Positions 2,490-22,821 of a stretch of 64,000 nt of DNA are shown in pieces; position 1 is the first letter of the stretch, and the number at the start of each line of letters is the position of its first letter. A program made the position numbers and the translations under genes. The notes below the pieces were generated by a model that worked only from the letters and a program-made list of their open reading frames with translations, was not told where the DNA came from and searched no databases. Source of the DNA: Caulobacter sp. FWC2. GTDB lineage: Bacteria > Pseudomonadota > Alphaproteobacteria > Caulobacterales > Caulobacteraceae. The stretch is taken from the NCBI RefSeq assembly GCF_002742625.1, contig NZ_PEBF01000001.1:3100001-3164000 (forward strand), read 5' to 3'.

Positions 2490-2585
2490 TTGGTGTCCAG
2501 CTCCCCAGCGCGCCGGCCTCGCCGGATCGCCGACGCACGTTTTACGCTTCCAACATTAGACGGCTCGCCATCTTTTGCGAGGTCG

Positions 2586-4019: not shown

Positions 4020-4146
4020 CCACGGCGGACCAAGTCGGATCGACCGCCTAACGAGCGCCCCCAAGTTCCGCAGCCCTGCGGCGTTGGGACTTGGGGATGC
4101 TTGAGCCAATTTGCGGCATCCACTTCACCCGGTTGAAGATGCTACG

Positions 4147-4905
4147 TTAGCCGCCGTCAGCTGGTGTCGAGACACCATTTGCCGCGCCATAACGGACGAC
4201 TTCTGGCTTGAGCTTGGCCAACAGCGCATCGACCCGATCCAGGTGCTCCTGGCTCTCAATGATCGAGGCATGGGCGCGTAGCGTAGCCAGCATGGTGGGA
4301 AGCATCCACAACACCACGCGCCGACGATCGGCCTGCGCCGTTTCGGTGGCGGCGGATGGTTCCTCCTCGGCGTCGATGAAGGGCGTGTGGCGGCCGATGG
4401 AGACGCCCGTGATGTGTACGGCCACGCCCGATAACACCCGGTGGTAGGTATAGAGGTCGGCGACGTCGGCTTGTCGAGCAAGCACCTCAAGATCCAGTCG
4501 TTTGCCGGTGCTCTCCAGTTCCCGAGCCCACTCCGCAGCGATGATCTCCGAGAACCCGAACTGGGCCTTACGCATCATTCTCACCTGGCCGTTCATCGTG
4601 GCCGAGACGTCGTTGGTCAGATCGGCGATGAAATCGCCGCGCCTGGCATCCAAGTTGGCCAGGCAGATGGCGACCTCGATGCTGGATCTCAGAATGATCT
4701 CGCACTCGAGAATCTGGTCCGCCTGCCACAGTACCGTGAATGCTCGAAAATGGCTCGTCGCCCGCCAAAAGAGCGCCGTCGAAATGACTGCGGGGTCGTC
4801 GGCTACGCCCTGGACGTTGAGGCTAGCTTCACCCAAGTCGTTGCCGATTTCGGCGATCTCGGCGAGGGCCGCTTGAAAGGTTTCGTACGAAGTCGTGGTG
4901 GTCAT
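4147..4905 (-). CDS. DUF5677-like helical protein
   Basis: A 252-residue, largely helical protein without membrane segments. Residues about 65-100 read as a LILRSSIEVAICLANLDARRGDF-type segment, which resembles DUF5677/HEPN-like proteins (RS..EA....L). These proteins are frequent in defence islands, and their biochemistry is mostly unknown. No clean R-x4-6-H pair was found, so a catalytic HEPN assignment is tentative. It is divergent from the larger HEPN-like gene at 5227, with which it shares the 320-base region between their starts. Confidence 0.6.
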   Translation of the reverse strand: MTTTTSYETFQAALAEIAEIGNDLGEASLNVQGVADDPAVISTALFWRATSHFRAFTVLWQADQILECEIILRSSIEVAICLANLDARRGDFIADLTNDVSATMNGQVRMMRKAQFGFSEIIAAEWARELESTGKRLDLEVLARQADVADLYTYHRVLSGVAVHITGVSIGRHTPFIDAEEEPSAATETAQADRRRVVLWMLPTMLATLRAHASIIESQEHLDRVDALLAKLKPEVVRYGAANGVSTPADGG

Positions 4906-5226
4906 GGTTTAGGAGGTCTTTTGACGAACTTGACGAATGAAGGCCGCGGCGGCGGTAAGTGGGTTCAGCAGCGCCATTTGCAGACATTGGTGTCACTCCA
5001 ATCTCCGGACGTTCGGCCGACGGCTTCTATGCTTGGGTCGACGCCTTTGCGGCCGCCCTCCAATATCCGTTAAGCGTCGCGCCTAGCGGCAGCAATCGGA
5101 GCAAAAGACCTCTGCTGTGGGAGCGGTCAGAAAGCCGCTGGCTCGATGCAGCCGCACCAACGACAGATACCTCCGCAGCGGCAAGCGATCTCGCAAGGCG
5201 CGAAGAATCCAGGAAGACCAAATGAC
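4906..5226. promoter_or_regulatory. Divergent intergenic region, presumed promoters
   Basis: A stretch of 321 bases between the starts of the genes at 4905 (minus) and 5227 (plus). It must carry both promoters, but no clear -35/-10 pair or operator repeat was seen. Short open frames here are typical GC-rich noise. Confidence 0.35.
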
Positions 5227-6723
5227 ATGACCCCACAGGAAATAGCCGACGCCCAGATCCTTGCCGCGGCGATCAAGGTCGTGGTCCCGCCAGCGGAAGA
5301 CCTCCCTCTGGATGGCGATGGCCTGTCGCGGCTGTTGCGGACAGCGGGCGTTGTTACCGGCGGGATCGATCCAGTTAGGGGCGCGGTAGTCGGCCTCACG
5401 GTCCCGGGGGTGCAAGCCTCGGAAGCGCTGGCCCGCAGTCTCCGAGACCGGCACGGGGACCTCGGCAAGCGGGCCGCCAACACCACGGTTGCCAACCTAA
5501 TCCGCGGCTATGCTCTGAAGGCATGGTCCGCGCACGGCGGGCGCCTCACCGCCGCCGACTGCACGGCGCTCGAACAGGCGGTCCTCTCATGGCTGTCCGC
5601 CCAGGGGCAGACCCGCCGCCATTACGTCCCTTGCACCCTCTTCGCCTATCGGATCGAGAGCTTCCCGGTCGGCCCGGTTCGTTTCCACCACCTGCACGAC
5701 ATGCCGACAGCCAGCATGATCGGCACGCGGGAGGAATTTTGGCCCACCCCTCCCAAGCCCGTCTGGCGGGACCGGCTGCGGAACGCCTTCGCTATCCTCC
5801 GCGGAAAGGACCTCGCGGTGCCGCAAGCCGACACGTTCGGCCAAGTGCCGGGCGGCTTCTACTACCGGGACCTCGTCCGGCTCTGCCAAGAGCGCCATGC
5901 CTGGTGGATCGCCGAGGTAGAGGTGCCCGGCCGGGAGGAAGCGCAATCGGTCGTCACAGCGGACTTCGCGGCCAACATCGCCCTGGCGGCCCTGACCCTG
6001 GCTTTGCCGGGCGATGAACTCCGGACCATCGCTCGCGCCAGTGAACGCGCGCGGTCTGTGTGGCGTGTCGATGTCTGGACAGGCACCGAGACACACGGAT
6101 CGCGAAACAGCAACCACGAGCCGGGTCGCACCCTGTCGCCCGACGTCATTGCCCGCGGCCTGCAGAGCCAGGCAAGGTTGCTGGAATCAATGGGACGCCG
6201 GCTCGAAAGCTACGTAGCGGGACGGGGTGCGCTGCCGAACCTCAACGAGAGCTGGTGCAACGCCGCTTACTGGTTCCACGAGGCGCTCCTTGAGAACGTC
6301 GAAGGCGTTGCGGTAGCGCAGTTCGAGACCGCCATGGAAGTGCTGTTCAGCACCGCCAGCACAAAGATCAGCACCGGGCGCTTGATGGAGGCAATGGCCG
6401 GGCTCCTCGGGATGGCGGAAGGGGACCCCATCGCACCGAACTCGCCCGTCACAGTGAAAACCTTCGTTTCCTCTATCGTCACAGCAAGGTCGCGGGTTCT
6501 TCACGGCACCTGGCCCACCCTGAGCGGCGAACTTCCGCTGAGCGTTCGCATCAGCGATGTGGAGACCCTCGCACGCACTCTTCTTACCGCTATGTCGCTT
6601 ACCCTCGATGCCTACGAGGCGGCGGGCCGGACGGAGGACGACATAAGAGACTTCCTGGACTGGGCGACCGCACAACGAATCGCGGCGGCAGCAGCGTCGA
6701 CAAGCCCTTCCGCTGAGCGTTGA
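5227..6723 (+). CDS. Large protein with C-terminal Apea-like HEPN motif
   Basis: A 498-residue soluble protein. The start used is ATG 5227 (MTPQEIADAQ); the upstream extension is Gln/Pro-rich and unlikely. The last third contains a segment typical of Apea-like HEPN domains, in which a helix with AQFETAMEVLF is followed by the motif R421-S-R-V-L-H426 (R-x4-H) and G427. The R/H pair is the ribonuclease site in active HEPN proteins. The N-terminal 300 residues are not recognised and may be the sensing part. It is probably an RNA-cleaving or RNA-binding stress/defence protein, but no partner gene is adjacent on the same strand. Confidence 0.65.
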   Translation: MTPQEIADAQILAAAIKVVVPPAEDLPLDGDGLSRLLRTAGVVTGGIDPVRGAVVGLTVPGVQASEALARSLRDRHGDLGKRAANTTVANLIRGYALKAWSAHGGRLTAADCTALEQAVLSWLSAQGQTRRHYVPCTLFAYRIESFPVGPVRFHHLHDMPTASMIGTREEFWPTPPKPVWRDRLRNAFAILRGKDLAVPQADTFGQVPGGFYYRDLVRLCQERHAWWIAEVEVPGREEAQSVVTADFAANIALAALTLALPGDELRTIARASERARSVWRVDVWTGTETHGSRNSNHEPGRTLSPDVIARGLQSQARLLESMGRRLESYVAGRGALPNLNESWCNAAYWFHEALLENVEGVAVAQFETAMEVLFSTASTKISTGRLMEAMAGLLGMAEGDPIAPNSPVTVKTFVSSIVTARSRVLHGTWPTLSGELPLSVRISDVETLARTLLTAMSLTLDAYEAAGRTEDDIRDFLDWATAQRIAAAAASTSPSAER

Positions 6724-6937
6724 AAGGACTCTTGCGGGTAGTACGTGGTCTCGCCGAGCGCCGACGCTCCAACCCTGCTCCGGGCTCGGGCCTTCACCTC
6801 CGCGCCATGAGCGGAAGTTGAGATACTCCCCCGAACGAGACCTTCGGGACCAGTTGGCGCCGGGAATTTGTCGTCTGTAGGGGCGCTAGAACGATCGACT
6901 ATGCCTACGGGGCCACGCCCGAGCCCTGACTTGACCG

Positions 6938-9229
6938 CTAGCTGTCCGAGCGCAGCGAACCGAAGAGATCACGGACACTGCCGTCGCTGGCGCGCCCTTC
7001 ACGCATGCGGTCCTTGTATTCGTCCATCATGGAGTCGGCGTAGGCTTCCTCGCGTTCCTGATACTCGGTCTCGGTCTCTTCCAGGACGTCCATGGCGCGG
7101 GCGACCTCCAGTTCCAGGTGTTCGGCGATGAACTCGATATCATCGCGAAGATCCGAAAAGTCCTCGCCCGTGCGGCACTCCAAGAGCTCGCTGCTGATCG
7201 CAGCCAAGGCCTCAGCCCCCGCCTCCTTCAGCGTCACGGCCAGGGCTTGGCTTTCCGGCTCGTCTAGATCCAGAAGGCTGACCAGTTCGCTGACATCCCG
7301 GATCGAGGGTTCCTTGGCCGTCTGCGCCACGAGATAGGCCGACATGGTCTCGACGATCCGACGCGATGCCGTGTCTTCGGGCGCAAGCCCGTCTAGGGCG
7401 CGCACCATGTCGACTCCGTTCGAGACGTAGATGTAGGCGCCAGCTTCCATGTTCTCGACGATCTCGGCGGCATATTGCTCGCGCAGGGCTCGAAACTCAG
7501 GGCTGCGAACATGGAAACGCAGCTTGAGCAGCGTCAGGAGTCGGCTGGAGGCCGTGAAGCCCTCGATGGAGCTCTTGCCGCTACGGATGACAATTCGACC
7601 CTTGCGTCCCAGGCAGCGGCCAACAGCTTCCATAAAGGCCTGAGGCTCGCGCTCTAGGCCAGCGAAAACGCCCTTGCCGCCGGCCGCGCCCCCGAGGGCC
7701 ATAACCCGTTCAATCTGCCCGTACTCGATCGCCCCCAGAACCACGGCAACGGCGTCGTCCGGGTCGCGACGCAGGACCGCATTCATCAGGTCCAGGACCG
7801 ACGGGTCCAACACGGCAAAGCCCTTGGTACCGTCCGGACGAACGAAGGCGTTGATCACCTGGGACATGGCCAACCGAAAGTCAGCGGCCTCGCGCGCGAA
7901 GCCATAGCGTTCCGCCCGCAAGCCGTGGAGGCGCCGGAAGGCCGGTTCCAGAACGGCGCCGTCGGCTTCGCCGCCGAAACTGAAGAGCGCCAGCAGCAGC
8001 GAGCGCCCGGCCTCGCCGATCTGCTCGTCATAGGCATGCAGCCAGAGCTTGGATGGGTCGCGTAAAAGTTTCTCGACGTGCGCAGCGAACTCCTCGGCCG
8101 GCACATGCGCCACCCGATTGTAGGTCGAGAGCCAAGCCACGAGACGTGGGTTGAACTTCTCGTGCTGAATGATGCGCAGGTAAAAGTCGTTGGCGAGCAG
8201 CGCCTCGCGATACGCGTCCGGCAGATCGCTGTAGTAGAGATGATTGTAAAGGATCAGGGCGCGTTCCCTTCGGGTGTAGTCGGAGACCCGCAGCACGAGC
8301 TTCCGGCTGTCCAGGCCGGCGTCGCGCAGCCGCTCTGAAGCGGCCAAGGCTTGGCCAAATATGTGCTCGCGGGTCGTCAGGATCAGTCGGGCCGAAGGTG
8401 TCTCGCCGATCAGTCCCATGAAATCGACCAGGGCGCGGTCGTCCTGCTTCATCCCCACCGCGCCACGGTCGCCCAGGAAGGTCGCGCCCATGAAGTCGTC
8501 GAAATAGAAAACCTGGCGCTTGCCGGATTGCAGGAGCCGGGCGCCCTCGGCGACATCGCGCCGGATGACCACCGGCTCCCAACCGTTGGCCAGGTGATTA
8601 TAGAGCAGCAGTTCAGCCAGGGTGGTTTTGCCCACGCCGGGCGGCCCCGACAGGATCACTAGCCGATCCCGCTCCAGGACCTGCAGCGCCTGCCCGTAGG
8701 CGCTGCTGGGTACGTACTTGGGGATGTCTTTCTGGATCCGCCGGACTTGGAAGTCGGTCTGGACCAGGACTTCATTGTGGATGACCCGGTCGAGCACCGC
8801 ACGACTGCCAAGCCACAGCTTGAAGTGCTGCTGGTGGATGCTGGGATGGCGCTCCAAGAGATTGTTGAGGTCCTCCGCGCCCAAGACGTCGGCGACTTTC
8901 AGGTGTTGCCCGCCGACGGCGTCGACGATCTGAACCTTGTTTTTCGGCGTCAAGGAGACCGAGGTGATCACCATGTAGCGGTCGGGCTTGAGCCCGGGAA
9001 TCTTGCCGGCTTCTTTGCGTAGCGCCGCCAGTAGGCCTGACAGGCCGGTCTTTGCGAAATGCTTGACCTGCACGATGAGCGTACCGGCCCGCGCGTATCG
9101 AAGGTCGATCCCGCCGTCGCGCCCGGACCTGAAGCTCTCAAGCACGATGCCGTGCTCGGCCTGAAGCAGGTCCCGCGAGAGCAGTTCCATGTCATGGGGC
9201 GAAAGCTGGTGAAAGTCGTAGTCCGCCAT
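6938..9229 (-). CDS. Mrr-like nuclease fused to nSTAND NTPase
   Basis: A 763-residue protein with a three-part layout. Residues 1-110 form an Mrr/restriction-endonuclease-like domain (RDGGIDL with Asp38/Asp42, then QVKH with Gln54 and Lys56). Residues about 165-420 form a STAND-type P-loop NTPase: Walker A GPPGVGKT at 195-202, Walker B FYFDDF at 241-246, and a sensor-like RLILTTRE. The remaining about 340 residues are helical repeats. STAND NTPases with nuclease effectors (Avs-like antiviral proteins) bind a phage protein through the repeats, oligomerise and switch on the effector. The domain order supports this for a single-gene defence system, although the sensor part has no family I can name. 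It is transcribed alone. Confidence 0.8.
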   Translation of the reverse strand: MADYDFHQLSPHDMELLSRDLLQAEHGIVLESFRSGRDGGIDLRYARAGTLIVQVKHFAKTGLSGLLAALRKEAGKIPGLKPDRYMVITSVSLTPKNKVQIVDAVGGQHLKVADVLGAEDLNNLLERHPSIHQQHFKLWLGSRAVLDRVIHNEVLVQTDFQVRRIQKDIPKYVPSSAYGQALQVLERDRLVILSGPPGVGKTTLAELLLYNHLANGWEPVVIRRDVAEGARLLQSGKRQVFYFDDFMGATFLGDRGAVGMKQDDRALVDFMGLIGETPSARLILTTREHIFGQALAASERLRDAGLDSRKLVLRVSDYTRRERALILYNHLYYSDLPDAYREALLANDFYLRIIQHEKFNPRLVAWLSTYNRVAHVPAEEFAAHVEKLLRDPSKLWLHAYDEQIGEAGRSLLLALFSFGGEADGAVLEPAFRRLHGLRAERYGFAREAADFRLAMSQVINAFVRPDGTKGFAVLDPSVLDLMNAVLRRDPDDAVAVVLGAIEYGQIERVMALGGAAGGKGVFAGLEREPQAFMEAVGRCLGRKGRIVIRSGKSSIEGFTASSRLLTLLKLRFHVRSPEFRALREQYAAEIVENMEAGAYIYVSNGVDMVRALDGLAPEDTASRRIVETMSAYLVAQTAKEPSIRDVSELVSLLDLDEPESQALAVTLKEAGAEALAAISSELLECRTGEDFSDLRDDIEFIAEHLELEVARAMDVLEETETEYQEREEAYADSMMDEYKDRMREGRASDGSVRDLFGSLRSDS

Positions 9230-9416
9230 GGATCAGCCAATCGTAACGCGACGGCGTGAATCGCTCGCGCGCACTAAGTGTATGGCCGATCATGGCGGAC
9301 TTTGAGGATTCCTAAAGCAGCGTCAACAGGCGACATTTGTGCCTCCGGAAGCAGACGTTCAATTGGACGGTTTCATCGACAGCGACAACCTTCACCGTCC
9401 GAAGTAGAACCGAGGC

Positions 9417-10906: not shown

Positions 10907-13900
10907 CTACCCGCCCTCCTCCAACGTGGAGAGCAGCGTCTTAGCGGTACTGACCGTCACCTGCTCGCGCAGGCGGTCCAGGGCGAACTGCATGGGCACC
11001 GGGTTCTTGAAAACGAGGTGGCTTTCGAGCTTATCGACGACGTCCCACCCGATGAAACGCGCGATCTCCGCGTGGTGCTGGTCGAGAAGCTCGATACGAT
11101 CGAGATGCTTGCGCAGATAGTCGCGCTTGCCGTCTTGGGTCATCTCGCCCCGGAAGTCGGCCAGTTGTTCGGCGATCTCTCCGAGGTTCTTCTTGAACTG
11201 TAGATCTTTGCACTCGATGATCAGCACACGTCGATCCGCGGGGCGCCAGGCGAGGACATCGACGTCGCCATGGTCGCGCTCGAAACCCTTGCGCAAGAGC
11301 TTGGTGATCTTGAGATCTGGCTCTGCGATCTGCCAGCCGTTGGCAGTGAGCAACTCGCCGATAGACACCGAAAACGCCTTGCCTCGCTTGTCCGCAGTCA
11401 CGGCCGCCCACGAGGTCATCGCCTTGCCCAACTGCCAGCTGGGGAAGCTACCGTCATAGAAACTGCCGAGCGTATAGCCAAAGCCCTGACGCGCCAGACC
11501 AGGCGAGATCAGGAAGCTGGGATCGTCAGTGTCGTCTATTTGCAGGAGGGGCCGGCGCAGGACGCTTAAACGCCGGCGAAAGCGCCAGATCTCCAGGTCG
11601 CGCGGATCGATGTCGTTGTCCGGCGAGCGCCACCCGGCGCGGGGCGTTAGGGTCAGCGTCGAGAGAATGGCGGGCATGTGCTCAGGGCGCAATCGTCCCC
11701 GTGCGTCGCCTGGGGCCAGCAAGAGTTGGCTCTTCTTCATCTTCAGCACAGCCTTACCCGCGTCGATGGCCCGATTTTCCAGCCAGTCAACGAACTGTCG
11801 ATAGGCGTCGATCGGCGCCCCAAGCTCCTCGGCCAGAGCAGTCGTGAACTTGCCTTCGAACAGGTGCTCGACAGCCGGGGTGATGTCCGCCTCTTCAAGA
11901 TTCTTGGCGTATTTGGCGACCGAGGCGTCGACCGACACGTCGCTGAAGGCCCGCGCGAACGGCGCCAAGATCTCCTCGACGAAGTCCAGCTTGGCTAGGA
12001 CGTCGCCCAGCGGCGAGATCTTTAGCGTCGGCTCCATCACGTCCCAGCGGATCGCGCCCGACCAGCCGCTAGCGACGAGGATCAACCCCATCTTGGCCAT
12101 TAGGCGGGAAAGGTCGAGCGCGCCGGGCGCACGCCCCTCCAGCGGCGCCTCGCAGAGCGCCAGCTCTACGAGCGAGCGCGAAGTCTGCGAAACCTCGGCC
12201 CGTTCGGAAACCTCCTTGCTGATGACGTCGCGAACCGCGTCCTTGTCCTTGCGCAACGCCAATATGGCGGCCGCAGTCCGTCCCCAACGCTGGCCTTCGG
12301 CGGCCGCGGCTTCGTGATTATAGAGCAGCGCCCGGATCAGGGCCTCTCGGCCAAAGTGGCGTAGATCCGCGCACAACTCCTCTTCGAGGAGCCGCACCGT
12401 GCGATTGAGGAACCGCATGGCGTCAGCCTTGCCGCGGATCCAGGCTCCTTCGGAGCGCTCATGGGCTCGCCAGCCCAGGCCAAGACGCAGCAGGGCGTCG
12501 TCATCGCGATCCACGCGCACCGTGACTTTGGGAATATCGGCGCGAACCTGGTCGAGGAAGGTCGCCACCGCGAAGGTGTGGCGATGACGCGCCTTTGGGT
12601 CGGGGCAGATCTCGTCGACGAGCTGGCGCTCGGCAGCCGCGTCGAGGGTTTCGCCGGCCAGGCCCGCGACGCCTACGGCGATAGCTGCCACCAGGGCTTG
12701 CTCAGCTATATTGTCGACATGAAAGCCACCGCGCTCGAACGCCTCGGACGCCTTGATCACGACGGTGCGTCGCTCTAGATCGGCCGTGACGACCAGTCCC
12801 GCTCGGACCTGAGGATAGTTGAGTGGCGCGGGACGTGCCTCACCATTCCGCATGCAATCGGTGAAGTCGCCTTCGATCAGTAAGGAAGACGTTCCAAGGC
12901 CCGGGAAGCACCGATCGAGAACCGGCGCTGCCCTGACGATCCACATCCGCAGCATCAGCCAGTAGTCGTGAGCCGGGGTCGCGGGCAGATCATCGGGGAC
13001 GAGGATGTCAAACCACCAGTCCCGCGCCGGCGTGATGAAGACACCAGCCGATCCGCGTCGTTCGCGGTCTTCGTCGCTGACATAGACACGCTCGGCGTCG
13101 TCCTCGGCGAAAATCCTGTCCTTTTGCCAGCGCACGGTCAGCTGGCGGCCGGTGACATCGGCGCGGACGTGGACGTCGAAGTCCATCGCCACCTCATGGC
13201 GAAGATCGCGCAGGAGGTTCTGAGGCACCATCAACGTGTCGGCATGGTCTCCCCCACCGAAATCGTCCGGCAATTGCCCATGGGGCACGAGGTGGCCGCC
13301 CAGGGACCTTGACCAGGCCACGAGGTTCAAAAGCCCGTTGATGCTTTGCAAGGCCACGCCGCCGCGTTCGAGCGCCTCTTGACCGTCCAGCAGCCGCCAC
13401 AATGACAACGGGCTGAAACCGTGCGCCCAGCTTAGGGTACAAAGCTCGGGCGCGGATAGGAACTCCAGCCGCCAGTTGCGGGCGGCGGGATCCGGCAAGG
13501 CGTGCGCGGCCGCCCGGCCGACACCGCAACCGACAATGACCGTCAAACCATCGACGAAATTGGGATCGTGCTGTGCCTGGCGATACGCGTTCCCGATCCA
13601 GGTCTGAAGCACGTCGGTGACTTGCCCTGGATCGGGGTTGGGGTCGATAAGGCCCGTCGTCTCGATGCCTTCGAGCGTGTCCAAGAGTAGAACGAGATTC
13701 AAATAGCGGCCCTGATCGGCTTCGATCGTGCCGCCGGCGAGCGCGAAACGCTCGCCGCGATGGAAGTGCAGGCGCGCGCCCATGCGGCCGCCTAGCAACG
13801 GCATCGACTCGATGAGTGCGAGATAGTCCCGGCCCAGTGCAGCCAGAAACGTTTCTCGCGCTCCCAGGGCGTCAAGCCTTTCGAGCAAGAACCGTCGGAT

Positions 13901-14698
13901 GGCGGCGCTGGCGGCTGTGGGCAGGACAAAGAAGACCTCTTGGCCTTTGATGACGAGCGGCCGCCGCTCAAGATCCGTATGTCCGAGTTTCTGGTTCAGC
14001 AGCTCCTCGCGGCCATCCTGACGGAACGCAAAAGGTGCAAGGCCCCTGAGCGAGACACCGGCAGAGCGAAGCTCGTCCAGGGTGAACCGCACCCGCCGCT
14101 GGAGCGAGGCGGCGCGGCTCAGGACGGACCTTGGAATCGTGTCCTGCGGGTACGCCGATCCCAACTGATTGCGCCATAGCTTAGATCGTTCGCAGACCAG
14201 ATCGGAAAGCCGCAAAAGGGAGAAGATCGCGACGCGCAGTTCATCATAGGGCGCGCCCTCGGGCATGCCTTCGACCACGTTGACGAACCGCTGGAGGTAG
14301 AAGCCCGCGCCCTCCCATATCCCCTCAAGAATTCGAAAGTCTCCCCGCGAGGTGCAGATCAGGCTGACGAAAACGTCCTCGGCCGGATCCTCAAGGCGGC
14401 CGACTCTGCCTTCGCCGATCTTGCGGAAACGCGACGCGAGCCAGGTTTCGGAGGGCTTCTTGCTGCCCTTCCCAAGCGCCAGTGCCTGATGGACGAGCAT
14501 TTCCAGTCGCGCGCAGTTGCTCTGCAACTCGGGAGCCGTCAACAGCGCGCCAAATATTGTCGCGGCTCGCACGGGATCCATTTGCGTCAGGACGGCCGCC
14601 TCGCTCGCTTCGTCGGGGGCGACGCGGCTCATGTGCCGTTGCATTTCGAACATCCCCGGAAGTCCGAGGAAATCCTGAAGGTCAATGCGGTCGTCCAT
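10907..14698 (-). CDS. Giant 1263-residue protein with C-terminal PD-(D/E)xK nuclease
   Basis: A very long soluble protein with no match I recognise over its first 1100 residues. These look alpha/beta mixed without P-loop, helicase or methyltransferase motifs. Near the C-terminus is a clear PD-(D/E)xK core: GDVDVLAW with Asp1147, then VLIIECKDL with Glu1162 and Lys1164, followed by helices (KKNLGEIAEQLADFRG). This arrangement resembles large defence proteins whose effector is a nuclease at one end and whose body is the sensor. The start ATG at 14698 gives MDDRIDLQDFLG. It is transcribed alone, convergent with the broken nuclease at 10788. The complete open frame over 3.8 kb argues strongly that it is functional. 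Confidence 0.78.
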   Translation of the reverse strand: MDDRIDLQDFLGLPGMFEMQRHMSRVAPDEASEAAVLTQMDPVRAATIFGALLTAPELQSNCARLEMLVHQALALGKGSKKPSETWLASRFRKIGEGRVGRLEDPAEDVFVSLICTSRGDFRILEGIWEGAGFYLQRFVNVVEGMPEGAPYDELRVAIFSLLRLSDLVCERSKLWRNQLGSAYPQDTIPRSVLSRAASLQRRVRFTLDELRSAGVSLRGLAPFAFRQDGREELLNQKLGHTDLERRPLVIKGQEVFFVLPTAASAAIRRFLLERLDALGARETFLAALGRDYLALIESMPLLGGRMGARLHFHRGERFALAGGTIEADQGRYLNLVLLLDTLEGIETTGLIDPNPDPGQVTDVLQTWIGNAYRQAQHDPNFVDGLTVIVGCGVGRAAAHALPDPAARNWRLEFLSAPELCTLSWAHGFSPLSLWRLLDGQEALERGGVALQSINGLLNLVAWSRSLGGHLVPHGQLPDDFGGGDHADTLMVPQNLLRDLRHEVAMDFDVHVRADVTGRQLTVRWQKDRIFAEDDAERVYVSDEDRERRGSAGVFITPARDWWFDILVPDDLPATPAHDYWLMLRMWIVRAAPVLDRCFPGLGTSSLLIEGDFTDCMRNGEARPAPLNYPQVRAGLVVTADLERRTVVIKASEAFERGGFHVDNIAEQALVAAIAVGVAGLAGETLDAAAERQLVDEICPDPKARHRHTFAVATFLDQVRADIPKVTVRVDRDDDALLRLGLGWRAHERSEGAWIRGKADAMRFLNRTVRLLEEELCADLRHFGREALIRALLYNHEAAAAEGQRWGRTAAAILALRKDKDAVRDVISKEVSERAEVSQTSRSLVELALCEAPLEGRAPGALDLSRLMAKMGLILVASGWSGAIRWDVMEPTLKISPLGDVLAKLDFVEEILAPFARAFSDVSVDASVAKYAKNLEEADITPAVEHLFEGKFTTALAEELGAPIDAYRQFVDWLENRAIDAGKAVLKMKKSQLLLAPGDARGRLRPEHMPAILSTLTLTPRAGWRSPDNDIDPRDLEIWRFRRRLSVLRRPLLQIDDTDDPSFLISPGLARQGFGYTLGSFYDGSFPSWQLGKAMTSWAAVTADKRGKAFSVSIGELLTANGWQIAEPDLKITKLLRKGFERDHGDVDVLAWRPADRRVLIIECKDLQFKKNLGEIAEQLADFRGEMTQDGKRDYLRKHLDRIELLDQHHAEIARFIGWDVVDKLESHLVFKNPVPMQFALDRLREQVTVSTAKTLLSTLEEGG

Positions 14699-15075
14699 GT
14701 CCCCTCCGAAATGCCGCGTCCGACCGTCTATCTCCCACGATCCGATAGGACGGAGCGCCTAGAAAGCACTGCCATGGCTGCGCCGCCTTCGATCGTTCTA
14801 TCATCAAGCTACGTCACAGAGGGTCGTACCTCATTGCATGCGATCGCGGTCTCGAGAGCCTTAGTGTTCGGCCCGCCCGACGAGCTGGCACGTCCGGCTG
14901 CTCAGCTGCGCTTTAGCAATAGCGGACTCGGACAGCGCAGGGAGCTGATAGGTGTGGCCACTCCCCCCTCAATTGTGTCGCGACTTTTGTCCTCGCGGTA
15001 GGTGCGACAGTCGATCGGCCGCACGTGCGCCACTCCATTGCAGAAAGATGCAGGATGCTTGTCGATCGTCGCGTG
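14699..15075. other. Gene-free spacer
   Basis: A stretch of 377 bases between the start of the giant nuclease gene and the end of the ABC ATPase gene, both on the minus strand. It should hold the promoter of the former. Short frames on both strands lack start signals and codon structure. No repeat or tRNA was seen. Confidence 0.4.
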
Positions 15076-18000
15076 TCAGGCTGACGCCGCGTGAGATTTG
15101 CCAGGCAAAGACGACTGGAGAGTCCATTCGACTCCTTCCTTGCCAATGCCCAGCAGGTTCAAGGTCGTGCAGGGAATGCGGCGCGAGCGGAATTTCCGCT
15201 GAAGGAACTCCGCTTGGCCGACATCATGGGTCGACAGAAAGACCTGGTAGCCCTCCGCGCTGACAAGATTGCCCATCAGGTCGGCGAAAGCGGCCGCATG
15301 GATCGAGTCATTGTGTTGCAAGGGATCGTCGAGCACGAGGGCCTTCCAGCGAGACCAGGGGAACGTGAGGCTGGCGGCCGTCAACATGCTGACGGCCAAC
15401 GCGGCCATTTGCCCCTCGCTGTGAACGAGCACCGGATCAATTTCTCCGAGCGCCTTAGGTACTTCGCCGCGCTTGACCGCGCTCTGCTCGATCTTCTTGC
15501 GCTTTACGTGCAGATCGATCCCGATGCGCGGATCGCAAAGGATTGCCTGGTTGATTTGAGCCATCAGGAAGCTCAGCGGCTTGATGTATTCGGCGTTGAA
15601 GCTGTCGAGTTCCGTTGTAATGTCGGCGCTCGCCGCCCGGGCTGTCTCCTTGACTTGCCGCACATCCTCTAACTGCGCTGCCAGCTGGGCTCGAAACGCG
15701 AGGGCCGCGTCGCGCACCTCTTCACGCAGCGCGCTTGGTGGCGCGTCGACCGAGGCGCGCAAATGTTCGAAAACTCCGCGGTGAGTGAGCTGACGTGACC
15801 ACGCCAGACGTCCCTCACGCAGACGCGACAACTTGCCCAGCGACGCCCTGACCACTGACCGGGACGCCGAAAGCCGATCCTCCACCTGAGCGATAACGTC
15901 GAGCCCCGGTTGGGAGCCGAAGCTTGATAGATCGACCCAACGGCGAACCAGTTTTTCGTTTTCGATGTCTAGGTTCGCTTTACGCCCCGACAGCTCTACT
16001 TGACGCGCGTGTAACGCCGCGTTCTCGGCGTCAAGACCGGCGGTGATGCCCTCAGCAGCAGCTAAGGCCTCATTGGCGAGCCCCACCCGTTCCTGCGCTC
16101 GCTCGACAGAGGTTTCTGCCTCTCCAAGCTTCGCGGCGAGCTGATCGGCATTTATCGCTTCGCCGGGCTTGACTGCGGCCTCGGCATTCGCCGCCTCCGC
16201 TCGCGCGCTGTCTAGTCTGGCGGCGGCGAGGTCTGCGGCCCGGCGAGCGGCCGCCTCCGCGCGCTGCGCGACGTCGCGCTCGCGCACCGCCCGGCTATGA
16301 TCGCTGCTGACCGCGCCGTCAGCCGCGAGGCGTTTGAGCCAGCGCTGTTTTCTACCTCGGCGCGCGTCCAAGGCGCGGAGCTCTGAAAGCGCCCGCGCGC
16401 GCGCCGCGACGAGCGCGTCAGGGGTTATAGTTGTAGCAGCGTCAAGTCGCGCTAAGAGACGCGCCCGCTGCTCGCGCGCTGAGGCCACCGCTTCACGCGC
16501 TGCATGAATCGCCGTCTGAGCTCGCCTCAGACGTTGAACGGCTAGGCTCGCCGCCTCCCGGCCAGCCGTCAGGCTCTGAAGCGCTTCCTCTTGCACAAGC
16601 AGGTTCGGCGCGAGACGGCCGGCCGCGCTCGAAATCCGAGCCTGGAGTTCAGGGGCGGTTCCAAACGATGTCGCGCAGAGCGGACAGTCGCATGCGTCTG
16701 CCGGAAGGTTGGCGGCGATCGAGGTGATAGCGGCCGACAGGCTGTCGACGGCGTCGCGCAGCCCTTCGACGATAGATGTTTGCAAGGCGGCACGTTCTAC
16801 TGCCGCTTTCCACTCCAAGTCAGCGGACTGCACCGCTTGATCGATCCTTGGGTCGGCGGCTTCAAGCGCAGCAAGCGCAGCGACTTGCTGCTGCAATCGC
16901 TCGTCGAGCTCCAGAGTCTCATCAATTGTCGCCAGGGCCTGCCGCGCGCCATCGTACTCTTTGCCCGCTCGATCGAGCTCTGCGGACAAGCGCTGAGAGA
17001 TGTCTCGCCGGCGCGCCTCTGCCGCGACACGGCGTTCGGCGGCGGCGGTCGCCGCCGTACTCGAGACCAGCGTAGAAGCAACGATCTCCATTTCCGTCGC
17101 GATCCGGGTCGCGAGGTCACGCGCGTCACGCAGGGCCTGTAGTTGGCCGCGAGCGGTCAGGGCGAGTGCCAAGGTTTCCTGCGCACCGGTGAGCGCGTGG
17201 CGGCGCGTCTCGCTCTCAGAACGCGCCTGCTCCAACGCCCCGCTCAACGCAGCCAGACGGGTGTCGGCTGCGGCTTTAGACGCCGAGATCTCTCCGAGTT
17301 CGGCTAAATGGCGCTGCCGCGCGGCGTATAGCCTGCGAGCCGTATCGACCCGGCCTTCAATGGTCAGGCAGGTCGCCTCGATCGCGTCGGCGATTGCCTG
17401 CAACTGCTCTAAGGTCGGTTCGGGATCGACGCTCGGAACTTGCGTGTTTGGCGGAACACCAATCCACGCGTTCGCTAGCTCCGCCGATAGCCGTCGCGCC
17501 TCGCCCAAAGCGGCCGCCTCATCGAGCGATCCGGCCGCTTGCGCGTCGATCCAAAGCGCCGCTTCCTGCTCAAACAGATCATCGACACTTTTAATGTCGC
17601 GCTCGAGCTGTTCGGTTCGTCGTGCATAGGCGCGCACCACCGTGGTGTTGCCCTGACCGTGAAGCGCGTTGGCGATGGCCTGGATCGAGGTGCTCTGGGC
17701 AGCTTCCTTCAGGATGTCGAACCGTTCGGTGGCGCTGCGATTGGTGAGACGCGAGAGAGTCGATTGGCCGAGGAAATGGGTTAGCAACAGATAGCGTTCG
17801 AGACCCGAGATGCTTTGCTGCCAGTCCGGTGCCCGGAGAAAGTCCGTTATGTCTGGAACGTTCCCGCCGAGGGTGGAGCTCGTCGCCTTGGCGTTCAGCA
17901 GACTGCGTTCGATGTGGCTCCCGTCCGAGAACGTCATTGCTGCGCTGGTCGGGCCCGGCGCTCCCTCGCGCCATCGACACAGATAGGTTCCAGGCTTATT

Positions 18001-18195
18001 GGCACCAACGGCGTCGCGGAAGTGGTCGATCCGGTCGGCAAAAGCCCATTCAAGAGCGTCAAATAGAGAGGATTTTCCCAGGCCGTTGCTACCGTGGACG
18101 ATGAGCACGCCCGGCTCCGGCGCCAGTGCGACATCAAGACTCGCGAAGCTCCGAAACTGTCGAAGCGCGATCTGTTGCAGATAGAGCGCCGTCAT
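15076..18195 (-). CDS. SMC/Rad50-like ABC ATPase of an ABC-3C system
   Basis: A 1039-residue protein. The N-terminus is an SMC/Rad50-type ATPase half (RQFRSFASLDV, Walker A GSNGLGKSS with Lys41). A long Ala/Arg/Glu-rich coiled coil follows. In the middle is a zinc-hook-like CDCPLC (Cys502, Cys504, Cys507), then a second coiled coil. The C-terminal half has the signature HSEGQ, Walker B WKALVLDDP and the H-loop STHD. Such proteins dimerise and act on DNA ends or loops. The start overlaps the stop of the preceding small gene by 4 bases, making it the last gene of a three-gene operon (21211-15076). The layout fits the ATPase subunit of ABC-three-component systems. Confidence 0.85.
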   Translation of the reverse strand: MTALYLQQIALRQFRSFASLDVALAPEPGVLIVHGSNGLGKSSLFDALEWAFADRIDHFRDAVGANKPGTYLCRWREGAPGPTSAAMTFSDGSHIERSLLNAKATSSTLGGNVPDITDFLRAPDWQQSISGLERYLLLTHFLGQSTLSRLTNRSATERFDILKEAAQSTSIQAIANALHGQGNTTVVRAYARRTEQLERDIKSVDDLFEQEAALWIDAQAAGSLDEAAALGEARRLSAELANAWIGVPPNTQVPSVDPEPTLEQLQAIADAIEATCLTIEGRVDTARRLYAARQRHLAELGEISASKAAADTRLAALSGALEQARSESETRRHALTGAQETLALALTARGQLQALRDARDLATRIATEMEIVASTLVSSTAATAAAERRVAAEARRRDISQRLSAELDRAGKEYDGARQALATIDETLELDERLQQQVAALAALEAADPRIDQAVQSADLEWKAAVERAALQTSIVEGLRDAVDSLSAAITSIAANLPADACDCPLCATSFGTAPELQARISSAAGRLAPNLLVQEEALQSLTAGREAASLAVQRLRRAQTAIHAAREAVASAREQRARLLARLDAATTITPDALVAARARALSELRALDARRGRKQRWLKRLAADGAVSSDHSRAVRERDVAQRAEAAARRAADLAAARLDSARAEAANAEAAVKPGEAINADQLAAKLGEAETSVERAQERVGLANEALAAAEGITAGLDAENAALHARQVELSGRKANLDIENEKLVRRWVDLSSFGSQPGLDVIAQVEDRLSASRSVVRASLGKLSRLREGRLAWSRQLTHRGVFEHLRASVDAPPSALREEVRDAALAFRAQLAAQLEDVRQVKETARAASADITTELDSFNAEYIKPLSFLMAQINQAILCDPRIGIDLHVKRKKIEQSAVKRGEVPKALGEIDPVLVHSEGQMAALAVSMLTAASLTFPWSRWKALVLDDPLQHNDSIHAAAFADLMGNLVSAEGYQVFLSTHDVGQAEFLQRKFRSRRIPCTTLNLLGIGKEGVEWTLQSSLPGKSHAASA

Positions 18196-18839
18196 TCAGG
18201 GTCCTTCCGGGCTTCAATCAGCTGCGGAATGAGGCCATCCGGGTCATCTTTATACGCCTCCGCGAGGGCGACCCAACGATCCGCCGCAGCCTTTGAAAGG
18301 CCATGGCGTACCAGGATGCGCTCCGCTAGGCCCTGGTTGTGGTCTAGAGGTGCGTCCAAGACCGCGGCGTGAGACCTCCAGGGCTGGGCGAGGAACGTCC
18401 GAGCGATGAAGTTGCGATAGGAGGTCTCGATATCCTTCGTGTCGGGCATCCAGATCACCTTCCGGCTGACGGACTCGTCGCGCTCCGCATAGTCGATGAC
18501 GCCTCGCCAGTCGGACGATGAGTCCGTCGCCGTCACATAGAGCATGATGTGGGCATTAACGACCTCTTCTGCGCGCATGTAGGAACGGGCTATCACCATC
18601 TGGTTGTGGAGAGCTCGGAGCGACGTTTGCATCTGCTCGCTACCTTCCAGGACGATGGGCGCGACCAGAACGGGATAGGCGCCCAGGCGAAGACCGACTA
18701 CGCCGTCGGGCAGCAACACTTCCGCGGGATCGAGCCGCCCCCGAAAGCTTCGCGCAGAGAACGTCGCCTCTACACTAGCAGGCCACTCGAGGGCCATGGC
18801 GGACGCCAGGAGCTTGTCGGCGAAAAGGTTGGCCGTCAT
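18192..18839 (-). CDS. ABC-3C middle component-like protein
   Basis: A 215-residue protein starting at ATG 18839 (MTANLFADKLLAS). Its features match the middle component type 1 of ABC-3C systems as I know it: a region with LRALHNQMVIARSYM, then a segment with YAERDESVSRKVIWMP, then FIARTFLAQPW (about residues 110-175). The middle component is thought to bridge the ATPase and the effector subunit. It overlaps the upstream flavin-Rossmann gene by 4 bases and the downstream ATPase gene by 4 bases, so the three should be made in fixed proportion. It has no enzymatic motif. Confidence 0.72.
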   Translation of the reverse strand: MTANLFADKLLASAMALEWPASVEATFSARSFRGRLDPAEVLLPDGVVGLRLGAYPVLVAPIVLEGSEQMQTSLRALHNQMVIARSYMRAEEVVNAHIMLYVTATDSSSDWRGVIDYAERDESVSRKVIWMPDTKDIETSYRNFIARTFLAQPWRSHAAVLDAPLDHNQGLAERILVRHGLSKAAADRWVALAEAYKDDPDGLIPQLIEARKDPE

Positions 18840-21211
18840 TGGGGCAGCTCCGCCAGTTCTTGATCCTGCCGGGCGCGAAGGGCTTCGAACTCCGCCGTCA
18901 CGGCACCTTGCCAAGCGATCATGCCCTCAGCCAGCCGAGCGCGCCAAACCTTGTCGTTCCGGATCACCACCGGCCGCACCCGCCGGGCCGCCGCAATGCC
19001 TGTCGTCGGCGCGCCCGCATCCAACACCCGTCCGGGCACATCCATAACCTCAACCTCGGCTGAGCCCGACAAGATGAGGGCGTCGACATCCCACTGGTCG
19101 GGGTGGGTCCAGACCGCGATCGGTTGATGGCCCACCCACTGACAGCCCGATCCGAGCGCCACGGCACCATGACCGAACATCAGATTACCGCGCTCAACCA
19201 GGGCCGGCGCGAGGGGCTCGCCGTGGTGGGTCGCCAGGATCATCAGCAGCGCGGCCGCAAGCTGCGGAAGGTGAGCATGGTCACCGCTCCATGGCGTCGG
19301 TTCACGCTGCTCGACGTTGGCCAGCCAGCGCAAGAAATCGGCCAGGAGCTGCGGGTTGGCCGCAAGCGCCACCTTCCAAGCGGCCCAAGTTGGGCCGATC
19401 GCCGTCGCGATCGTCGCATGAATTGGGCCCAGAGTCGCGCAGGAGTGGCTCGTCAACGCGAGTTGGAGGGCACCGTCCAGTAGACGGAGCAGGCAGCTGT
19501 CAACGGCTTGGCTGAGGCCTGCCACGTTGGACGGAGCGGGATGCCAATGCGACAGCACCGCTGACGTCGCCGAAGCGATGTTCGGCACCACCGTGCGCCA
19601 GTCCGCGACTGTCTCTGGACTCGCTGAGAGCAAGATCCGCCCGCTGCTTGCCAGGGCCAGCCGGGCGATATTGGCCCATTGCGGCGTATCCTTGGGCGGT
19701 GCGTTGAACTGCACGGTAAAAGTCGTCGTAAGGCGTTCGCACTGATCGGCGACATCGAGCAGGCTTCGGCTCCCCTGTTCGGTTGCCACGTGGGCCGCGG
19801 GATCGACGCCCAGGGTCAAGATAGCCCGCTCGGCGGAAACGGTCGCTTTCAGGGCCGGCCGCGCGGCGTGATCTTCGAGGTGGTTGATGCGCAGATCTTG
19901 GAACAGATCGTAAGTCTCTGCGGCGAGAACCGGCGGCGCGGCCAGTTCGGGTTTGGCCTTTAGAAGATCGGTGACATGGAGGCGATAGGCCCCCAAATGG
20001 TCGCCGGCTGGCTGATAGCGCAGGTTGCGGTTGGGGCCGTGCCTGAGAATGACGGTCTGGAACGACGCCGTCAGGGGCTTGCCGGAGACCGAAACCCCCT
20101 CCAACTGGAAATGCCCCGCGTGCCCCGTCACGTCTGTGACCTTCCCGGCGCTCCGCGCAACCGGCCGACCGGCCGACCGGGCCGCCTCAAGCACGGCGAA
20201 CGCCATGACCTGATTGAGCTGCGCCGCCTGACCCGCTGCCAAGAGCGGGCCAACGCTGTTAATTGTCACTTGCCGGTCGGTGCGAAGGCGGCGCCCCAAG
20301 CGATCGATGACGCTTCGATCCGTCAATAGCGGCAGCAAATGTGTCGTGAAGGCCGGTTCAAGATCGGCGCCGGAGAGGACGCCGGTACACGCCGCGTTCG
20401 TGCCGGCGCGCAAGGCGTCGTCTTGAAAATAATCCAGGAACCCGCGGGTAAAGGCGACGTGTTCAAAGTCCTCGATCAGCAGATTGAGGAGGTCGGTCAG
20501 CCCACCATCTCCGTTTCCGCTGACAATATAGGTGGCTGGGCTAATGGCCTCCGCCGCCGCCGATCCCGTGGAGTTCTGCTTCCAGTAGTGAAGGGGAACC
20601 GCCGTGCCGCAAGGAATCTCATCGCCGAAACCCATCGCCAGAACTACGCGATCGAAGGTGCGCCCAATGGCGCCATTGTTCGATTGAAGTGTGAGGCGCC
20701 ATCTCGCCCCCTCCTTCTCGACAGCGGTCAAGCGGTGTTCCGGGTGGAACACGAGGGTATTCAAACGCGTCTCCGCTGCCGCGAAGTCCGCCTTCAGTTG
20801 GGCGCAGACAACACCGCCGTTGTTCGCAGACCAGTCGAGAATAGGCAGCCCGGCGCGGTCCCCTAGCGATCCCAACGCAGGCCACTCGTAGATGTGGGGG
20901 TGCAGCAGCCGCGGCGACGCGCTCTGCAGCTGTAGGATCGACGTCGCCGGATCGTACAAGGCCACCTCATAACCAAGCAGCGCCAACGCTAGGGCGGCTG
21001 TTACGCCGGCGGCGCCCGCGCCAACCACTGCGACGTGGTCGGTCGACTTGAAGCGGCCAGGTTGGGCTAGAGCGTGTGCAAAGCGCAGGGCCCGAACCTG
21101 CTGGGAATAGAAGGTAATTCGGCGATCAAAGGCCCCAATGAAATGGAGACCCGGGTCCTGAGGGCTGCCCGATAGAGCGAACCAATCATCATAGTCCGAC
21201 TGATGTACCAT
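18836..21211 (-). CDS. FAD/NAD(P)-Rossmann protein, third component of ABC-3C
   Basis: A 791-residue protein. Residues about 58-90 form a classical dinucleotide-binding Rossmann start (VAVVGAGAAG at 61-70, ending in an acidic ...VALYDP), as in FAD-dependent oxidoreductases. A second glycine-rich strand (YIVSGNGDGG) lies near residue 230, as in two-dinucleotide-binding-domain flavoproteins. The C-terminal half (about 480-791) is not a known oxidoreductase part and probably docks to the ATPase/middle component. It is the first gene of a three-gene operon with 4-base overlaps to the next. A flavoenzyme-like effector in this position is unusual. The expected biochemical output is unknown, with cofactor sensing or an oxidative effector being the obvious options. 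Confidence 0.75.
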   Translation of the reverse strand: MVHQSDYDDWFALSGSPQDPGLHFIGAFDRRITFYSQQVRALRFAHALAQPGRFKSTDHVAVVGAGAAGVTAALALALLGYEVALYDPATSILQLQSASPRLLHPHIYEWPALGSLGDRAGLPILDWSANNGGVVCAQLKADFAAAETRLNTLVFHPEHRLTAVEKEGARWRLTLQSNNGAIGRTFDRVVLAMGFGDEIPCGTAVPLHYWKQNSTGSAAAEAISPATYIVSGNGDGGLTDLLNLLIEDFEHVAFTRGFLDYFQDDALRAGTNAACTGVLSGADLEPAFTTHLLPLLTDRSVIDRLGRRLRTDRQVTINSVGPLLAAGQAAQLNQVMAFAVLEAARSAGRPVARSAGKVTDVTGHAGHFQLEGVSVSGKPLTASFQTVILRHGPNRNLRYQPAGDHLGAYRLHVTDLLKAKPELAAPPVLAAETYDLFQDLRINHLEDHAARPALKATVSAERAILTLGVDPAAHVATEQGSRSLLDVADQCERLTTTFTVQFNAPPKDTPQWANIARLALASSGRILLSASPETVADWRTVVPNIASATSAVLSHWHPAPSNVAGLSQAVDSCLLRLLDGALQLALTSHSCATLGPIHATIATAIGPTWAAWKVALAANPQLLADFLRWLANVEQREPTPWSGDHAHLPQLAAALLMILATHHGEPLAPALVERGNLMFGHGAVALGSGCQWVGHQPIAVWTHPDQWDVDALILSGSAEVEVMDVPGRVLDAGAPTTGIAAARRVRPVVIRNDKVWRARLAEGMIAWQGAVTAEFEALRARQDQELAELPQ

Positions 21212-21637
21212 CTGCGCTCTTGAGGGATCACACTAGGAGGCGCCGACAATCGCGCGTCGAGGTGGTTCGAGTCGGAAACTTAACCAATAGGAGACTGGAT
21301 ACAAGCTCGGTCACTCAACGACTGCTGGGGCCGCCTGCCCCTCCGGGACTTCTGACCACAAGAGCTCGCACGGCCAAACGCCTAAATTAGCAACGAACCT
21401 CCCTGCTCATCGCAAGGCCGGCGCCACCGGCCGCCAACGAGCGGACCTTCCCAAGTTCAGCAATGAGTCATGAACAGCCTAAGTCGTGACGATCAGTGTT
21501 CCGGCCGGCCGCGTCAGCGATCGTCACCCGAATGGGCCGAGACCGCGCAGCGGGCTCGGCGGCGGCCGGCGCGGCTTGCCGCGTCCGGCGCCGTAGAGCG
21601 CGGTCGCGCGCGCAGCGCGCGAGACGCCCAGCTCTGA
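21212..21637. other. Gene-free region with one inverted repeat
   Basis: A stretch of 426 bases between the ABC-3C operon start and the first XRE gene. It should hold the operon promoter near 21230. A perfect 9-base inverted repeat (GTGACGATC at 21486-21494, GATCGTCAC at 21519-21527) may be an operator or weak terminator of the XRE gene. No credible gene was found. Confidence 0.4.
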
Positions 21638-21853
21638 CTAGCGGTCCTTGCGCCGGACAAGCTCCGCCTCGGTCACTGCCAACGCGGCGGCCAGTCGCTC
21701 GAGGACCCGCAAGCTAATGTTGCGCTTCCCGTTTTCGATGCCAGACAGATACGTCGTATGAATCTCGGCGATATGGGCGAGCTCGTCCTGCGGGACGCCA
21801 CGCGCCTCCCGCACGGCGCGAATATTCGCCCCTACGACCACTCGGAGATCCAT
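21638..21853 (-). CDS. XRE-family regulator (copy A), controller-like
   Basis: A 71-residue single-domain helix-turn-helix protein. The fold covers nearly the entire chain (REARGVPQDELAHIAEIH, then TYLSGIENGKRNIS), as in restriction-modification controller (C) proteins and small phage-type repressors. It is a close paralogue of the neighbour at 21946-22155. A 22-bp element identical to one upstream of that neighbour lies 33 bases before its start. No methylase or restriction gene is adjacent. Its natural target is presumably its own promoter and perhaps the ABC-3C operon. Confidence 0.8.
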   Translation of the reverse strand: MDLRVVVGANIRAVREARGVPQDELAHIAEIHTTYLSGIENGKRNISLRVLERLAAALAVTEAELVRRKDR

Positions 21854-21885
21854 GCTCCGATGGCGCGCTATCCGAGCGCAATGCG

Positions 21886-21907
21886 GAATAGACTATGAGT
21901 AAAGTGG
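21886..21907 (-). promoter_or_regulatory. Repeated 22-bp operator/promoter element (copy 1)
   Basis: The element GAATAGACTATGAGTAAAGTGG occurs exactly here and at 22188-22209, each time just upstream of a paralogous XRE gene on the minus strand. It contains the dyad ACT-ATG-AGT and an adjacent AAGT/ACTT pattern, which resembles controller-protein boxes (ACT...AGT). Most likely it is the autoregulatory operator overlapping the promoter. Confidence 0.55.
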
Positions 21908-21945
21908 GAATAAAAGCTGCAGGACCCTTTTGAACGATCCGCCGG

Positions 21946-22155
21946 CTACCGTCGGATCACTAAATCGGTCTCTGGCACCCTAAGAGCGAGGGCTAGGCGC
22001 TCAAGCACGTTCATGCTGATATTTCTTTTGCCTGTCTCAACACCTGAAAGATAGGTCACGTGGATACCTGCCAAGTGTGCGAGTTCGTCCTGCGGAAGGC
22101 CCCTCGCCTCCCGCAGGGCGCGAACGTTCGCTCCCACCACGGCTAGAAAATCCAT
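21946..22155 (-). CDS. XRE-family regulator (copy B), controller-like
   Basis: A 69-residue helix-turn-helix protein, start ATG 22155 (MDFLAVVGANVRAL). It is very similar to the copy at 21638-21853 in both the recognition helix region (HVTYLSGVETGKRNIS) and the flanks, so one arose by duplication. It is divergent from the sigma factor gene that starts at 22288. The shared 22-bp element lies in the interval between them. Whether it controls the lasso cluster or only itself cannot be told. Confidence 0.8.
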   Translation of the reverse strand: MDFLAVVGANVRALREARGLPQDELAHLAGIHVTYLSGVETGKRNISMNVLERLALALRVPETDLVIRR

Positions 22156-22187
22156 GCCGTGAAGGCGCACGGTCGATGCTGGACAGT

Positions 22188-22209
22188 GAATAGACTATGA
22201 GTAAAGTGG
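22188..22209 (-). promoter_or_regulatory. Repeated 22-bp operator/promoter element (copy 2)
   Basis: An exact second copy of the element at 21886-21907, again 33 bases upstream of an XRE start. Because it lies between the XRE gene and the divergent sigma factor gene, a bound repressor here could also affect the sigma gene. Confidence 0.55.
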
Positions 22210-22287
22210 AAAAATATCGTCGTGCGTCCGCGACGTCCACGCGGGCACGGCTCGATCCGGATTCCGTCCCGCCCCCATCGGCTTGGA

Positions 22288-22821
22288 ATGCGGCTTATGC
22301 CCCCGCTCAACGCTCAGATCATCGTCCCCGACGACGACCCGCCCCCTGCCCCGCCGGCCCCGCCCCTGGCCGCTGAGTACCTGCGCCATCGCGCCTGGCT
22401 GACCTCGGTGCTGACCCTGCGCTATGGCCGCGAGGACGCCGCCGACATCGCCCAGGACACTTATCTGCGGGTGCATGCCTACGTCCCCTCGGCCCCGATC
22501 CGCCGCCCTCGGTCGCTGCTGATGCGCATCGCCCTGAACCTGGCGTCCAACCGCCACCGCAAAGCGGCCTGGGAGCACGTCACCGATCCCCAGGATCCTT
22601 GCCTTGACCGGCGTACCACCGAGGGCGACCAGGACGCGGCGGCCATTTTTGCGGAGATGCTGCTCGCCTTACCGTCAAAGTTGCGCGATGTTTTCGTTCA
22701 GGCGCACGTCGAAGGCAAAAGCTACGAGGAGATCGCGCGGACGTGCGGGATCTCGCTCGGCGCGGTGGAAAAGCGAATGAGGCAGGCGGTCGCCAGATGC
22801 GATGCGTTCATCGGGAGCTAG
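22288..22821 (+). CDS. FecI-like ECF sigma factor
   Basis: A protein of about 177 residues with sigma-70 region 2 (LTLRYGREDAADIAQDTYLRV) and region 4 (LPSKLRDVFVQAHVEGKSYEEIA, then AVEKRMRQAV). Region 3 is absent, as in extracytoplasmic-function sigma factors of the FecI group. The ATG at 22297 is an alternative start; upstream residues are arginine/proline-rich and unlikely. It is followed 12 bases later by a FecR anti-sigma and then a TonB receptor with a signalling domain. In such sets the sigma factor is released when the receptor binds its ligand and then drives the receptor gene. Here the presumed ligand is the lasso peptide. Confidence 0.85.
   Translation: MRLMPPLNAQIIVPDDDPPPAPPAPPLAAEYLRHRAWLTSVLTLRYGREDAADIAQDTYLRVHAYVPSAPIRRPRSLLMRIALNLASNRHRKAAWEHVTDPQDPCLDRRTTEGDQDAAAIFAEMLLALPSKLRDVFVQAHVEGKSYEEIARTCGISLGAVEKRMRQAVARCDAFIGS

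Follow-up and report, generated by a model that had tools for sequence, protein, structure and literature searches.

Which defense system is encoded by three overlapping genes in Caulobacter sp. FWC2, and what might their flavoenzyme-like product do? The genes lie on the minus strand of a 64,000-nucleotide stretch of the genome (contig NZ_PEBF01000001.1, forward-strand positions 3,100,001 to 3,164,000), which is called the window below and in which positions are counted. An initial annotation, made from this sequence, assigned the set to the ABC-three-component (ABC-3C) conflict systems. ABC-3C is the broader name for a layout that includes Lamassu, and within that group Lamassu is the part that was named from experimental work.

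According to a review, LmuA effectors of Lamassu likely carry varied N-terminal enzyme domains, which include a double-Rossmann dehydrogenase domain, and all Lamassu components are essential wherever this was assayed (PMC10586767). Lamassu type II, which includes LmuC, protected E. coli against phage, as described in the PADLOC paper (PMC8565338). Fused effectors, those of Lamassu included, are activated by clustering upon infection, as stated in another report (PMC12799240).

In this study, we analyzed the three genes, their neighborhood and their relatives in genome, plasmid and phage collections. Taken as a whole, the explanation that we favor, and consider probable, is a Lamassu operon of the flavin-effector type whose LmuA kills by means of its flavin module.

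Identification of the operon

The operon is almost certainly a Lamassu (ABC-3C) defense operon, because the PADLOC profiles LmuA, LmuC and LmuB match nearly the whole length of each of its proteins. The genes are as follows.

18836..21211, minus strand: lmuA-like gene, 791 amino acids, flavin module and ABC-3C CTD2 (profiles)
18192..18839, minus strand: lmuC-like gene, middle component, 215 amino acids (MComp1 and LmuC profiles)
15076..18195, minus strand: lmuB-like gene, Rad50/SMC-like ATPase, 1039 amino acids (LmuB profile)

LmuA matched PDLC03858 (E 4.3e-217) over residues 7-788, in a single alignment that spans both the flavin module and the C-terminal part; LmuC matched PDLC03876 over nearly its full length (1.1e-62), and LmuB matched PDLC03868 over residues 1-1029 (2e-250). 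In Pfam searches, LmuA had FAD-type Rossmann domains and the CTD2 of ABC-3C, LmuB had SMC_N/AAA_23, and LmuC matched MComp1 (E 6.5e-10), scoring 39.2 bits where the cut-off is 27.3.

18905..19690, minus strand: CTD2, ABC-3C C-terminal domain 2 (PF20278), LmuA residues 508-769 (Pfam, E 9.3e-39)
18384..18647, minus strand: MComp1 match (PF20289), LmuC residues 65-152 (Pfam)

The set has the features of Lamassu/ABC-3C, i.e., an LmuB ATPase with a CPxC motif, the middle component LmuC, and an LmuA with an N-terminal enzyme and a C-terminal ABC-3C domain. The operon order is effector, middle component, ATPase, which places the middle component between the other two. Three minus-strand, overlapping genes for 791, 215 and 1039 residues had been described initially, and they are present exactly so: all frames run from ATG to TGA without internal stops, and ATGA occurs at both junctions (overlaps 18836-18839 for lmuA/lmuC and 18192-18195 for lmuC/lmuB). 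The trio is more than a chance arrangement because profile matches reach E 2e-250 and the gene order recurs in four annotated plasmid records and two genomes, where gene ends overlap or are at most 2 bases apart. The early proposals of an ABC-3C layout and of a middle-component-like 215-residue protein are therefore borne out by these profiles.

Could the 791-residue protein be a housekeeping flavoenzyme? A protein search, with scoring confined to the 7995 candidates of highest word overlap, identified 279 LmuA homologues, and CTD2 was found in every homologue listed, 120 of the 279 (Pfam column, by eye). The housekeeping reading was rejected on this basis. With the MComp1 match of the 215-residue protein, neither of the two findings that the initial annotation had named as refuting was obtained.

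That annotation also regarded the flavoenzyme-like effector as uncommon and its action as undescribed. The novelty was overstated, as the set is Lamassu, a system whose known effectors already include a double-Rossmann type. As to its action, no title or abstract start in the literature searched concerned a flavin effector in defense, which is consistent with this part of the claim. The name Lamassu-FMO has been used for this effector type; in the collection searched, no paper contains it, or Lamassu together with FMO.

LmuB and LmuC

Seven aligned LmuB sequences share Walker A, the signature SEGQ, Walker B and the CPxC hook; the zinc-hook-like CPLC that had been reported for the 1039-residue protein is thus a conserved element (CPxC in 7/7).

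18067..18093, minus strand: Walker A GSNGLGKSS of LmuB, residues 35-43 (alignment)
16675..16686, minus strand: zinc-hook-like CPLC of LmuB, residues 504-507 (alignment)
15322..15339, minus strand: Walker B LVLDDP of LmuB, residues 953-958, with Asp in place of the usual catalytic Glu (7/7 sequences)

The catalytic Glu of Walker B is replaced by Asp in all seven proteins, and the change described for the Lamassu ATPase in general, in the review, is Glu to Gln (PMC10586767). The same Glu is thus altered here, but to another residue; it is plausible that LmuB, too, is an ATPase built for slow hydrolysis. At thresholds of E 1e-3 for LmuB and E 1 for LmuC, sequence searches gave no solved relatives.

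The flavin module of LmuA

The N-terminal part of LmuA contains FAD- and NAD(P)H-type Rossmann motifs in one chain, as in two-dinucleotide-binding-domain flavoproteins. GAGAAG, noted initially, is the first of them, and the two-domain FAD fold proposed at that time agrees with the structure prediction, which supports a flavin enzyme fold for this part of the protein.

19925..21046, minus strand: two-dinucleotide-binding-domain flavoprotein module, LmuA residues 56-429
21005..21022, minus strand: GAGAAG, first Rossmann motif (presumed FAD), LmuA residues 64-69
20501..20518, minus strand: GNGDGG, second Rossmann motif (presumed NAD(P)H), LmuA residues 232-237

Judging by these motifs, the module quite likely binds FAD and NAD(P)H. 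In an alignment of 23 modules from all contexts, G26, Q38, R40, G64, G69, R101, P105, W110, P111, W127, Y209, W210, G232, G234, D235 and G236 were invariant, and position 87 was Asp or Glu in 23/23. Solved proteins gave only short Rossmann matches to the LmuA sequence, at E 0.012 and worse.

Occurrence of the trio

Twenty-two of 72,556 plasmid records matched LmuA, and in eight the match covered 80% or more of the query. Of five plasmid records examined, four contained the trio of LmuA, LmuC and LmuB (annotations: ABC-three component system protein, middle component 1, AAA family ATPase), and the fifth (L057) a lone 371-residue piece. In a sixth plasmid locus (L084) the gene sizes correspond to those of the trio and the third gene encodes an AAA ATPase, and three further plasmid records carried the module in other settings. 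Carriage by phages was rejected, as 50,697 phage records gave no match.

Genomes were searched in phylum, class and order draws, which partly overlap; two candidates per genome were scored, so that the counts are lower bounds. In the phylum draw (398 genomes), six matched at 1e-20 and the full trio was present in the source genome, G645 and G655, and in the class draw (385 genomes) the source genome was the only match. In the order draw (398 genomes), 213 matched at E 1e-3, mostly through short Rossmann matches, and 9 of 14 control genomes also matched at this threshold (none at 1e-20); matches above 100 bits were kept, giving 13 genomes besides the source. One locus with a short match (L002), from a scan of genome contigs, was not used.

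The flavin module outside Lamassu

The module also occurs at 15 loci of other context, i.e., the 13 of the order draw (L033-L045) and two from the phylum draw (L052, L053). No LmuB or LmuC was adjacent in the 13 order-draw loci (phmmer, E 1e-3); in L038 the partial start of an LmuB-like ATPase (3.5e-8) lies about 8 kb beyond the module and was not counted as adjacent. CTD2 was absent from the nine proteins scanned of these 15.

Several gene arrangements could be distinguished. Six loci (L037-L040, L044, L053) have a three-gene set, in which the module is accompanied by proteins of 253-296 and 779-917 residues, with genes at most 8 bases apart or overlapping (starts of the reading frames are uncurated). 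The small partners of L037, L038, L044 and L053 match one another, and of the large partners, those of L039, L040, L044 and L053 match mutually, as do those of L037 and L038; the six sets thus appear linked, in part by transit through partner matches. The larger partner has a PIN-like start by eye, and Pfam gave no match in the three of six small and three of six large partners scanned. An idea from one sequence, that the second protein is trypsin-like, was dropped, because by eye the serine is not conserved among the six aligned sequences and the three of six scanned had no Pfam match. A Ruegeria plasmid has the three-gene layout by size alone.

In two loci, an ORC-CDC6-like ATPase directly precedes the module (L033, with a Pfam match at 1.3e-6, and L035, a relative of it without a Pfam match); the pairs span 5856-9278 and 11656-14699 of the respective loci. 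N-terminal fusions of 808-995 residues, with an inserted stretch in the module and an N-terminal part that matches no assigned family, were found in three loci (L041-L043). The four other loci are L034, L036, L045 and L052, of which L034 and L052 have a C-terminally extended form of about 700 residues. Near the 699-residue flavin-module protein of L034 is a 1055-residue protein (1635-4799, minus strand) that matches ThsA and PDLC03856, an LmuA profile of another type.

In a midpoint-rooted tree of the 23 modules, those of ABC-3C, the source module included, formed one clade with the lone truncated relative (96/96). The long fusions (100/100), the ORC pair (95/95) and L034 with L052 (100/100) also formed one clade each, and the three-gene sets grouped with L036 and L045 (100/100); L045 and L035 are long-branched, which makes their places unsure.

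On this comparative evidence, we lean slightly toward the view that the module represents an effector family of its own among bacterial conflict systems, one that has no name as yet and has been combined with five or more sensing arrangements: ABC-3C with CTD2, the ORC-CDC6-like pair, the three-gene set, the N-terminal fusions and the C-terminally extended form. A defense role outside Lamassu is weighed against by the PADLOC results, as only one of ten neighbors of other-context modules matched at 1e-10 (in L034), and the four partner proteins scanned gave no match. If the view is true, the module would be a flavin counterpart of the TIR, SIR2 and trypsin modules common to several systems, and one enzymology project would bear on the effectors of several unnamed gene sets.

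Genomic setting

The GC content is 0.61-0.67 in the operon stretch and 0.69-0.75 from 23 kb. Downstream of lmuB, a gap of 377 bases separates the operon from the next same-strand gene, which belongs to a different system. It is the Upx-like anti-phage gene at 10907-14698 (minus strand), which matches Upx in PADLOC at 4.7e-236; its NCBIfam Upx score of 896 bits is under the cut-off of 1900. At 6938-9229 (minus strand) a 763-residue protein has Mrr_cat (6e-6) and nSTAND3 (1e-44) domains and a match to the candidate defense family PDC-S73 over residues 1-489. TIR-bearing Aga profiles also match this protein, over residues 3-194 only, but Mrr_cat and nSTAND3 account better for these hits, and a TIR domain was rejected.

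Several relatives within the genus share the right flank, from about 21434 onward. The GC-rich stretch 21504-21643, at the edge of the island, is at most 93% alike in the genus and has two weak partial copies elsewhere in the source genome. For 3000-6900, more than a short match was found in one of 60 other genomes (G1164, about 810 bases at 68%). In one relative (L078), positions 2-265 and 21509 onward of the window are both matched with their order unchanged, but about 9 kb apart versus 21 kb here; as the left anchor is a short sequence with partial self-complementarity, this comparison is suggestive only. Other relatives with the same right junction have different genes, including restriction-modification and OLD-like ones (by eye, first 60 residues). 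Positions 1 to about 21500 form a lower-GC stretch with a conserved right flank and with different genes at the junction in L077, L078 and L079. We interpret the site as variable and defense-rich, and as a likely hotspot for defense genes. An RNA gene at the island edge was rejected: Rfam searches of 14500-22300 gave nothing up to E 1, and there was no tRNA in the window.

Proposed mechanism and alternatives

By analogy with the family, LmuB and LmuC would form a sensor for foreign or damaged DNA and would hold LmuA inactive through CTD2, and sensing would lead to release or clustering of LmuA. The anatomy of the protein suggests that the freed module, with FAD and NAD(P)H bound, could oxidize NAD(P)H with oxygen. 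Reducing power in the infected cell would then fall and peroxide rise, so that the cell, and with it the phage or plasmid, would be stopped. That toxicity would come from oxidizing or depleting NAD(P)H is a tentative proposal drawn from this anatomy. Several observations weigh against the scheme: the predicted LmuA model is without cofactor, and no sigma-70-like promoter was found in 14600-21500 by a scan limited to this type (0.9 expected by chance). In addition, the conserved motifs R-x-x-H/D-P-x-x-x-x-W-P and YW suggest a specific substrate over simple oxidase leakage, and one module column is Cys in 75/104 close LmuA homologues at best, which leaves some probability for a thiol role within LmuA.

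A specific substrate is the essence of the alternative in which LmuA is a flavin monooxygenase or hydroxylase that modifies one metabolite of cell or phage (amine, nucleotide or lipid) to a toxic product. Flavin monooxygenases and ornithine/putrescine N-hydroxylases are among the Foldseek and VIA lists, and R101, P105, W110, P111, W127, Y209 and W210 belong to the residues kept in 23/23 modules; however, identity to the listed solved flavoproteins is only 10-19%. FxGxxxHxxx[W/Y/F] is the class B flavin-containing monooxygenase (FMO) signature; its strict form occurred in 0/104 LmuA proteins and 0/23 modules, and a looser form somewhere in 11/104 LmuA proteins. We regard this alternative as rather unlikely. 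Recruitment into the operon of a thiol-disulfide reductase of the thioredoxin reductase or YpdA type is far less probable still: the best Cys column across contexts reached 7/23, and the invariant redox-active cysteine of disulfide reductases was not found in the module. On motifs, both a canonical class B FMO and a disulfide reductase are disfavored.

The module might instead have a sensory or regulatory role tied to redox state or NAD(P) level, with killing exerted elsewhere, e.g., through DNA handling by LmuB. Nucleotide-binding motifs are retained while the chemistry is not evident, and, in the review, other LmuA types have different N-terminal enzymes (PMC10586767). Yet the same text gives the N-terminal domain of LmuA as the likely effector, and the module occupies that place; we consider a sensor role improbable. 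The chemistry of the flavin effector, together with the spread of its module beyond Lamassu, would be the point of importance.

Comparison with known systems

The bacillithiol disulfide reductase YpdA/Bdr and thioredoxin reductases differ from the LmuA module, which lacks an invariant catalytic cysteine and is fused to CTD2. Class B FMOs have two Rossmann motifs and a related fold in common with LmuA, but their strict signature is absent from it. The plant immune enzyme Bs3 is a functional analogue only. The unnamed loci L033-L045, L052 and L053 share the module and its invariant motifs, without adjacent LmuB or LmuC. With ABC-3C, the operon shares CTD2 on LmuA, MComp1 on the middle protein and an SMC/Rad50-like ATPase; it is the same system under the broader name. 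Compared with Lamassu as defined in PADLOC (LmuA, LmuB, LmuC), the proteins and their order are the same, and no substantive difference was found. Lamassu as a kind and its double-Rossmann effector are known; what is new is one more flavin-type Lamassu operon.
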